The position numbers were made by a program, and so were the translations under genes. Shown in pieces: positions 36,717-39,237 of a stretch of DNA of 64,000 bases. This DNA is from Bosea beijingensis. GTDB taxonomy: Bacteria > Pseudomonadota > Alphaproteobacteria > Rhizobiales > Beijerinckiaceae. A model generated the notes under the pieces. It searched no databases. It had not been told where the DNA came from and worked only from the letters and a program-made list of their open reading frames with translations. Numbering within the stretch: position 1 is the stretch's first letter; every line of letters begins with the position of its first letter. The stretch lies in the NCBI RefSeq assembly GCF_030758975.1, contig NZ_CP132359.1, forward strand, positions 2,248,811-2,312,810, given 5' to 3'.

Positions 36717-38339
36717 TCAGTGGTCCGAGCCGGTGATGCGCGGCAGCGTCTCGAACTGGTGGAACGGCGGCGGCGAGGACAGGGTCCACTCCAGAGTCGT
36801 CGCACCTTCGCCCCACGGATTGTCGCCGGCGAGCTCCTTCTTCGTGAAGGCGACGATGACGCCGTAGAAGAAGATCAGCAGGCCGAAGGCGAAGATGTAG
36901 GAGCCGATCGACGACCAGAATTGCCAGCCGGCGAAGGCATCGGGATAGTCGACATAGTGACGCGGCATGCCGGCGAGCCCGAGGAAGTGCTGCGGGAAGA
37001 ACAGCAGGTTCGCGCCGACGAAGGCGACCCAGAAGTGCAGGCGGCCGATCCAGTCCGGGATCACGTAGCCGCTCATCTTCGGGAACCAGTAGTAGAAGCC
37101 CGCGAAGATGCCGAACACGGCGCCGAGCGACAGCACGTAGTGGAAGTGGGCGACGACGTAGTAGGTCGCGTGCAGCGAGCGGTCGACGCCGGCATTGGCC
37201 AGCACGACGCCGGTGACGCCACCGACGGTGAACAGGAAGATGAAGCCCATCGCCCAGACCATCGGCGCGGTGAAGCGGATCGAGCCGCCCCACATCGTCG
37301 CGATCCAGGAGAAGATCTTGATGCCGGTCGGCACTGCGATGACCATCGTCGCGAACACGAAATAGCGCTGCGTGTTGAGCGACAGGCCGGCGGTGTACAT
37401 GTGGTGCGCCCACACGATGAAGCCGACGACGCCGATCGCGACCATGGCGTAGGCCATGCCGAGATAGCCGAAAATAGGCTTCTTCGAGAAGGTCGAGATG
37501 ATGTGGCTGACGATGCCGAAGGCCGGCAGGATCATGATGTACACTTCGGGGTGGCCGAAGAACCAGAACAGGTGCTGGTACAGGATCGGGTCGCCGCCAC
37601 CGGCCGGGTCATAGAAGGTCGTGCCGAAATTGCGGTCGGTCAGCAGCATGGTGATCGCGCCGGCGAGGACCGGCAGCGACAGCAGCAGCAGGAAGGCGGT
37701 GACCAGCACGCCCCAGGCGAACAGCGGCATGCGGTGCATGGTCATGCCCGGCGCGCGCATGTTCAGGATCGTGGTGATGAAGTTGATCGCGCCCAGGATC
37801 GAGGCCGCACCGGCAAGGTGCAGCGACAGGATGCCGAAGTCGACGGACGGGCCGGGGTGGCCGGTCGTGGAGAACGGCGGATAGATCGTCCAGCCCGTGC
37901 CGACGCCCTTGGCGCCCGGCGCACCTTCGACGAACATCGAGATGATCATCAGGATGAAGGCGGCGACCGTCAGCCAGAACGAGATGTTGTTCATGCGCGG
38001 GAAGGCCATGTCCGGCGCGCCGATCATCAGCGGCACGAACCAGTTGCCGAAGCCGCCGATGACCGCGGGCATGACCATGAAGAAGATCATGATCAGGCCG
38101 TGGCCGGTGACGAAGACGTTGTAGCTCTGGCCGTTGGCGAAGATCTGCAGGCCGGGCTGCTGCAGCTCGATGCGCATCATGATCGAGAGGAAGCCGCCGA
38201 CCAGCCCCGCCATGATCGAGAAGATCAGGTAGAGCGTGCCGATGTCCTTGTGGTTGGTCGACAGGAGCCACCGGCGCCATCCGGTCGGATTGGCGTGATG
38301 GGCCTCGTCATGGCCGTGGGCGTGAGCCGCTGTTGCCAT
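36717..38339 (-). CDS. ctaD: Cytochrome c oxidase subunit I (aa3-type, A1 family)
   Basis: Catalytic membrane subunit, about 540 residues, twelve helices. D-channel and K-channel residues are present ([15 protein letters not shown] with the Glu and cross-linked Tyr, and [16 protein letters not shown]), as are the heme ligands ([16 protein letters not shown]) and CuB His-His (WAHHMYT). The usual LHDTYY before AHFHYV reads LHATYY (Ala at residue 391, codon 37167-37169), and MPRRY reads MPRHY (His at residue 461, codon 36957-36959). Both positions border the non-redox Mg/Mn site and heme propionates, so this site is likely altered. Start ATG 38337-38339 ([12 protein letters not shown]). Confidence 0.96.
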
Positions 38340-38358
38340 CTTTCTTCTCCTCGGCGAC

Positions 38359-39237
38359 TTACTTGGACGCGGCAGCGAACTTGCTGCCCGCGTCTTCGGC
38401 ATTGGCGAATTTCTGCTTCGCTTCCGCGAGCCAGGCGGCATAGCGCTCCTGGCTGACGACGCGGACGGCGATCGGCATGTAGGAGTGGTCCTGGCCGCAG
38501 ATGAACGAGCACTGGCCGTAATAGATGCCTTCGCGCTCGGCCTTGAACCAGGTTTCGTTCAGGCGACCGGGAATGGCGTCGATCTTGATGCCGAAGGACG
38601 GAACCGTGAACTTGTGGATGACGTCGGAGGCGGTGACCTGGACGCGGACGATCTTGCCGATCGGGACGACGGCCTCGTTGTCGACGGCGAGCAGGCGCGG
38701 CGCCTCGGCCTCGGCGATGCGCTTGCTGGCGATCGCCTTGGCGCGGTCCTCTTCGTTCAGCATCAGCGAATCGAAGGTGAAGCCGCCGTTCTCCTTCGGG
38801 TACTCGTAGGTCCAGCGCCACTGGTTGCCGGTGACCTTCAGGGTCATGTCGGCCTGCGGCACCTCGAGCTGCAGCTTGAGCAGGCGGAAGGATGGGATCG
38901 CGATGACGACGAGGATGAGGACCGGGATCACCGTCCAGCATACTTCGAGCAGGGCGTTGTGCGTGGTCTTCGACGGGACCGGGTTCGCCTTCTCGTTGAA
39001 GCGGAAGACGACATAGATCATCAGCCCGAGCACGAAGAGCGTGACGATGGTGATGATGACGTTCAGCCAGTCATGGAACCAGTGGATGAACTCGGCGACC
39101 GGGGTCACCGCGCCCTGCAGGTTCATCTGCCAGGGGGAGGGCATGCCGGTGCCGGCGATCGCCGGGACGGTCGCCAGCGCGCCGACGGCAAGGGCCGTGG
39201 CGGCCGCTGTTGCAAAAGTCCTGCTCAGAAATCGCAT
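38359..39237 (-). CDS. ctaC: Cytochrome c oxidase subunit II
   Basis: CuA-bearing subunit, 292 residues. It has a signal peptide ([20 protein letters not shown]), two membrane helices, and a periplasmic cupredoxin domain. The CuA region is [18 protein letters not shown]: Cys-x3-Cys, His and Met are kept, but the Glu usually between the cysteines (CSEICG or CSELCG) is Phe (residue 245, codon 38503-38505). That Glu normally binds Mg/Mn through its side chain. The other CuA His lies in [12 protein letters not shown]. Start ATG 39235-39237 with GAGGAG upstream; a TTG 24 bases further up is a poor alternative. Confidence 0.95.

Follow-up and report, generated by a model that had tools for sequence, protein, structure and literature searches.

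The aa3-type cytochrome c oxidase encoded in the window, a whole stretch of 64,000 nucleotides of Bosea beijingensis DNA, raises the question of what becomes of the non-redox Mg/Mn site, situated between CuA and the propionates of the hemes, when its carboxylate ligands are absent. An earlier note on this DNA had suggested that one lineage had either given up the site or rebuilt it. As far as sequences can tell, this view is supported by the fixed state of the Bosea substitutions and by the coupled loss of the ligands at positions 412 and 254, both described below. The ligands of the site in A1 oxidases are taken here to be H411 and D412 of CoxA and E254 of CoxB; Rhodobacter sphaeroides mutants at all three residues are known from older literature. 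The R. sphaeroides numbering is used for positions 173, 178, 411, 412 and 482 of CoxA and 218, 227, 229 and 254 of CoxB. In current models based on the bovine enzyme, a water cluster containing Mg stores the pumped protons (PMC10194837, PMC12901375), and in R. sphaeroides the metal bound at the site has been used to trace product water (PMC3141039). Among the open-access papers listed by literature searches, covered mostly at the level of titles and the opening of abstracts, no report of natural A1 oxidases without the carboxylate ligands was recognised, which is weak evidence of novelty.

Gene cluster and type of the oxidase

The genes of the oxidase form a cluster on the minus strand of the 64-kb window, arranged according to their Pfam matches in the order coxB-coxA-ctaB-ctaG-coxC-DUF983-surf1:

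38359..39261, minus strand: coxB, cytochrome c oxidase subunit II with the CuA domain (PF00116, PF02790); TTG start as listed, an alternative ATG at 39235-39237 being possible
36717..38339, minus strand: coxA, cytochrome c oxidase subunit I (PF00115); ATG at 38337-38339
35537..36571, minus strand: ctaB-like prenyltransferase of the UbiA family, by its position a putative heme O synthase (PF01040)
34756..35370, minus strand: ctaG/cox11 assembly protein (PF04442)
33847..34701, minus strand: coxC, subunit III (PF00510)
33331..33723, minus strand: DUF983 protein (PF06170)
32567..33334, minus strand: surf1 (PF02104)

The encoded oxidase matches the Pfam families COX1, COX2 and COX2_TM and possesses the following features; (i) a GHPEVY motif in CoxA, whose helix VI Glu we take to be the mark of A1-type oxidases; (ii) all CuA ligand positions (C252, C256, H217, H260) in CoxB; (iii) the motifs with N121, D132, N139, N207, S299, T359, K362 and subunit II E101, presumably the residues of the D- and K-channels. 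Motifs bearing the heme and CuB ligands are likewise present. All this agrees with the claim of the earlier note that the heme, CuB, CuA, D-channel and K-channel residues it had checked are intact. Both subunits align over nearly their full length with those of the aa3 oxidases of R. sphaeroides (1m56) and Paracoccus denitrificans (1ar1), with which the redox-centre and channel motifs are held in common. The sequence is not closer to the B-type ba3 oxidases than to A1 chains, the CoxA scores being about 42 bits against ba3 subunit I chains and 773 bits against the best aa3 chain. Judged by its motifs, the enzyme is an A1-type heme-copper oxygen reductase (aa3), otherwise conventional. A separate observation concerns CoxB, which reads QWRW at 38812-38823 (minus strand) where the aligned chains have the aromatic patch QWYW of the CuA domain, presumably the entry of electrons from cytochrome c.

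The host genome consists of one contig of 5.56 Mb, and the CoxB of the window shares 95-98% identity with database proteins that carry the name Bosea. A total of four COX1-family matches have been identified in this genome: the window CoxA, an isolated second CoxA, one with bo3-like motifs and a more distant one, the last two being taken as the bo3 and cbb3 oxidases. Because there are just two COX2 matches, the window CoxB and a weak one that adjoins the bo3-like subunit, the window oxidase is taken as the sole CuA-type oxidase of the genome. The isolated second CoxA (L007:5072-6676, minus strand, equal to G000:C1:5251074-5252675) adjoins a gene with an XdhC domain, carries Asn412 and His482, and is without a COX2 match of its own in the host genome. 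Full-length copies of at least 92% identity occur in 6 of 61 genomes of the genus, the host included, and a partial copy (91%) in a seventh. Compared with the four other copies inspected, that of the host is three residues shorter immediately ahead of the CuB histidines.

Substituted residues in the Bosea lineage

The codons at and around the site are the following, all on the minus strand:

37167..37169, minus strand: GCG, CoxA Ala391, at the position of the Mg/Mn ligand D412 (codon read and alignment)
36957..36959, minus strand: CAC, CoxA His461, at the position of R482 (codon read and alignment)
38503..38505, minus strand: TTC, CoxB Phe, at the position of the Mg/Mn ligand E254 (codon read and alignment)
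38611..38613, minus strand: CoxB Lys, position 218, adjoining the CuA ligand His217 (codon read)
37872..37874, minus strand: CoxA Phe156, at the position of L178 (codon read and column scan)
37170..37172, minus strand: CoxA His390, at the position of H411, the sole one of the assumed Mg/Mn ligands to be kept (codon read)

The earlier note had read Asp as replaced by Ala at CoxA residue 391, Glu by Phe in CoxB, and the second Arg of MPRRY by His at CoxA residue 461. All three readings are borne out by the codons. Misalignment, which could have refuted them, was checked, and the local alignments to the solved chains run without gaps and place the residues at D412, E254 and R482 of R. sphaeroides. 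The CoxB Phe is residue 253 when counted from the TTG at 39261 and 245 from the ATG eight codons later. Where the R. sphaeroides and P. denitrificans enzymes have Asp, Arg and Glu, that of Bosea has Ala412, His482 and Phe254, together with Lys at 218. Both carboxylate ligands of the A1 oxidases that bear the Mg/Mn site are absent from the window enzyme; Asp407, His411 and Arg481 are unchanged in its CoxA.

The breadth of this type has been assessed by scanning the peptide motif GQCSFxCGQ across a genome collection described as one genome per species (84,980 species); the motif demands a Gln after CG, so Phe254 variants without that Gln would be missed. Of 54 matching stretches, 48 are true CoxB, and the remaining six, with neither a CoxA nor a CoxB match by tblastn, were taken as chance. 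The records of the 48 are named Bosea, Boseaceae, Rhizobiales/Hyphomicrobiales and Beijerinckiaceae, with one MAG named Methylobacterium; B. lathyri and B. thiooxidans belong to the species with Ala/His/Phe at 412/482/254. The CoxA of these loci has Ala412 wherever the position is readable (37/37), and His482 likewise (35/35). Among 49 deduplicated Ala412 loci, His482 is present in every one, Phe254 in 48 and His254 in one. The Bosea substitutions are a lineage trait, fixed in the Bosea loci that were read.

Distribution and timing of the changes

For a wider comparison, 238 coxB-coxA loci have been assembled from family, order, class and phylum samples, hand-picked from the best matches (about 150) listed per search, from the loci returned by those searches and from the GQCSFxCGQ matches. 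Three kinds of row were dropped: those with any of the three positions uncovered, those from a genome already represented, and those identical to a kept row in both CoxA and CoxB. The Bosea family is over-represented in this sample, and CoxB sequences far from that of the window are missing from it. The residues at 412/482/254 are the canonical Asp/Arg/Glu in 130 loci, Ala/His/Phe (the Bosea type) in 48, Glu/Arg/Lys in 20, Asn/His/Arg in 13, Asn/His/Leu and Asn/Arg/Gln in seven each, Asn/His/Gln in three, and Gly/Arg/Glu, Asp/Arg/Asn and Glu/Arg/Glu in two each; Ala/His/His, Asp/His/Gln, Asp/Arg/Lys and Asp/Arg/Gln are represented by one locus each. Of 20 stretches from outside Alphaproteobacteria, 19 can be read at 412, 482 and 254, and every one of these is canonical. 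The Asn/Arg/Gln, Asn/His/Arg, Asn/His/Leu and Glu/Arg/Lys classes of Alphaproteobacteria resemble Bosea in that both ligand positions are changed and coxB is paired with coxA; they differ from it in the residues at 412/482/254 and are without Lys218.

The ligands of the two subunits are closely associated. Where 412 is Asn or Ala (n=79), Glu254 is never kept, and where it is Asp (n=135), Glu254 is kept in 130; His482 loci (n=73) have Glu254 in no case and Asp412 in one. A further 121 unpaired CoxA rows, composed of that of the window and 120 database proteins, have His482 in 84 of 86 cases with Asn or Ala at 412 (Gln and Arg in one each) and Arg482 in 34 of 35 with Asp or Glu, all of these numbers being counted by hand from a table. 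Asn412/His482 is found in proteins named Alsobacter, Pseudochelatococcus and Camelimonas, and Asp/Arg in those named Chelatococcus, Microvirga, Salinarimonas and Methylobacterium. The existence of partial states (Gly/Arg/Glu, Asp/Arg/Asn, Asp/Arg/Gln, Asp/His/Gln and Asp/Arg/Lys) indicates that the two ligands can part; those with Asp412 beside Gln, Asn or Lys at 254, or beside His482 and Gln254, are possible intermediates. Position 411 is His in 218 of the 238 loci and Gln in 20, and the Gln411 loci that were inspected retain a carboxylate at 412 and Glu254.

The timing of the changes has been followed on two trees, both with crowded classes thinned: a quick IQ-TREE phylogeny of 122 of the 238 rows, with the trait columns excluded, and a FastTree phylogeny of 165 of 200 rows. 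Expected numbers of same-branch changes come from random placement by branch length, a simple null which ignores error in the inferred ancestral states. On the 122-row tree, changes fall on 12 branches for position 412 and on 15 for 254; nine branches show both, where 1.34 are expected (0 of 20,000 draws as high); on the 165-row tree the numbers are nine, 12 and five, with 0.60 expected. When losses are counted without reversal on the 122-row tree, 412 is neither Asp nor Glu in eight clades, and Glu254 is also gone in seven of these. The eighth is Gly/Arg/Glu, and in the Glu/Arg/Lys clade both positions have changed too. Paired-lineage sign tests, with very few pairs, gave three concordant, no discordant and three uninformative pairs for 412/254 (p 0.25), and median p values of 0.5 for 412/482 and 0.125 for 254/482. 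Independent variation of 412 and 254 is rejected by the same-branch excess on both trees and by the 0/79 count, with the reservation that the sign test had too few pairs for a decision.

The earlier note had also raised the co-occurrence of all three changes across many oxidases. This holds for 412 and 254; for R482H it holds at the tips (0/73), and its timing on the trees is inconsistent. With FastTree, R482H falls on the same branch as changes at 412 and 254 three and two times (p 0.0009 and 0.037), and with IQ-TREE once and twice (7596 and 1857 of 20,000 draws as high). IQ-TREE puts R482H on an internal branch, followed by two apparent reversals to Arg, separate losses being equally possible. 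The Bosea type groups with the Asn/His/Leu group in the FastTree phylogeny; in that of IQ-TREE the Asn/His classes are joined by two canonical rows (support 87), and the Bosea type lies elsewhere. On this record of sequences, loss of the Mg/Mn ligands is recurrent in Alphaproteobacteria, usually with both subunits changed together.

Water cluster, local charge and the fate of the metal

All columns of CoxA and CoxB have been scanned for a residue that 75% or more of the canonical rows share and that is replaced in any of five derived classes. Nine columns were returned, 412, 482 and 254 among them; the others are CoxA 173 (Val in the Glu/Arg/Lys class) and 178 (Phe in Ala412 loci), CoxB 227 (Arg in the Glu/Arg/Lys class, Gln in the Asn/Arg/Gln class) and 229 (Tyr in most Asn/Arg/Gln loci), and the two CoxB columns with window numbers 103 and 268. 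Phe178 is present in 49/49 Ala412 loci as against 1/130 canonical loci. Position 218, which the 75% threshold could not return, is Lys in 49/49 Ala412 loci and in 0/189 others, where Ser, Ala, Asn, Gly or Asp is found. Lys at CoxB 218 is a fourth linked change of the Bosea type, new here. Positions 173, 178, 229, 254, 412, 482 and 218 are among those tabulated for the Mg-containing water cluster (PMC12901375, Table 1), and by this table Lys218 would lie beside the old Mg site. In the Asn/Arg/Gln class another part of the periplasmic water cluster is altered, with CoxB Lys227 replaced by Gln (7/7) and Asp229 by Tyr (6/7).

Glu198 of the bovine enzyme has two metal partners, CuA at its main-chain carbonyl and Mg at its carboxylate (PMC10598403), and a water link joins the carboxylate to Arg439 (PMC10194837). 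These residues correspond to Glu254 and Arg482 of R. sphaeroides in the table of PMC12901375, and the E254-R482 link seen in the sequences matches this water-bridged contact. Two more distant enzymes offer comparisons, both from PMC12901375. In the B-family ba3 oxidase of Thermus thermophilus, as in Bosea, both carboxylates are replaced, there by Asn377 and Gln151, and the water cluster is described as free of Mg, for which reason the authors suggest that Mg is not essential to form or stabilise the cluster. Unlike Bosea, this far more distant sequence keeps both arginines at 481/482. By its residues, the Asn/Arg/Gln class of the present survey is the A1 counterpart of the T. thermophilus ba3. 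In the Pseudomonas stutzeri cbb3 oxidase, the propionates are proposed to be kept deprotonated by a cation within their water cluster; unlike the Bosea case, this is a Ca2+ coordinated by the propionates together with another subunit, at a site without sequence relation.

The Mg/Mn site of the window's aa3 oxidase, an enzyme of the A1 kind, has probably been lost, with a cluster free of metal rebuilt in its place. The loss of both carboxylates through D412A and E254F should abolish metal binding, and neither Mg nor Mn would then be bound. A doubly charged cation would thereby be taken from beside the propionates and CuA. Its positive charge could be supplied by the ammonium group of Lys218 in Bosea, or by Lys or Arg at 254 in some sister lineages, and product water and pumped protons would leave via the same water cluster without the metal.

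The charge idea, formed after most of the data had been seen, has been examined by counting formal charges at 412, 482, 254 and 218, with the metal as +2 only where both carboxylates are present and His482 as neutral. The canonical class has a net charge of +1 in 129/130 loci. The same value is obtained for Ala/His/Phe and Ala/His/His with Lys218, and for Glu/Arg/Lys, Asn/His/Arg, Asn/Arg/Gln and Asp/Arg/Lys; it is 0 for Asn/His/Leu, Asn/His/Gln, Gly/Arg/Glu, Asp/Arg/Asn and Asp/Arg/Gln, and -1 for Asp/His/Gln. Derived rows at +1 amount to 90 of 106 loci, though shared ancestry inflates this count. With neutral His482 just six of the 12 distinct derived combinations keep +1, so that charge replacement does not hold generally, and a universal charge rule was rejected as too strong. 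Among the last 40 stretches, read after the idea was written down, three are fully changed, all Asn/Arg/Gln, and fit; one, Asp/Arg/Gln, does not.

It is only tentatively suggested that a tethered organic cation may have taken the place of the Mg2+/Mn2+ of A1 oxidases several times and by three or more routes, local positive charge being conserved and not the metal. Three such routes would be Lys218 in Bosea with Ala412/His482/Phe254, Lys254 with Glu412/Arg482, and Arg254 with Asn412/His482, the last resembling a transfer of the arginine from CoxA to CoxB. A conserved local charge would set the energetics of the propionates and CuA and gate proton exit.

Relaxed constraint is the strongest competitor, yet an unlikely one. 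According to it, the Mg/Mn site is nearly dispensable, the partner ligand drifts after the first loss, the choice of residue at 254 and 218 is incidental and no charge is replaced. Such drift would suit the several derived combinations without charge balance, the eight different residues (Glu counted) found at position 254 in the 238 loci, and a ba3 oxidase that works without Mg (PMC12901375). However, Ala412 loci are uniform in Ala, His and Lys (49/49) and almost so in Phe (48/49), even though no more than 102 of the 250 columns of CoxB show a single residue within this set, and the Glu/Arg/Lys (20 loci) and Asn/His/Arg (13 loci) classes are uniform as well. Neutral decay would be expected to vary more than these fixed class residues, for which reason relaxed constraint is disfavoured. 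Continued binding of a metal through His411, other side chains, the backbone and water is highly improbable: His411 is kept in most loci, and so are Asp407 and Arg481, but Ala and Phe stand where the two assumed carboxylate ligands would be, and a Lys adjoins the site. Sequencing error, misalignment or a decaying gene can practically be dismissed, given the alignments, the open frames, the complete operon and the identical residues in 48 CoxB records and all readable CoxA neighbours.

The substituted Bosea oxidase, with its site probably rebuilt free of metal, is by these comparisons a real, fixed and lineage-wide variant of a well-known enzyme, and one instance of a change that recurs in a coordinated manner in both subunits. 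Natural A1 oxidases without both carboxylates, with separate losses and defined substitutes, would provide comparisons for the role of the metal without damaged point mutants. Such recurrent natural losses would make that role testable and may be of interest for studies of proton pumping.
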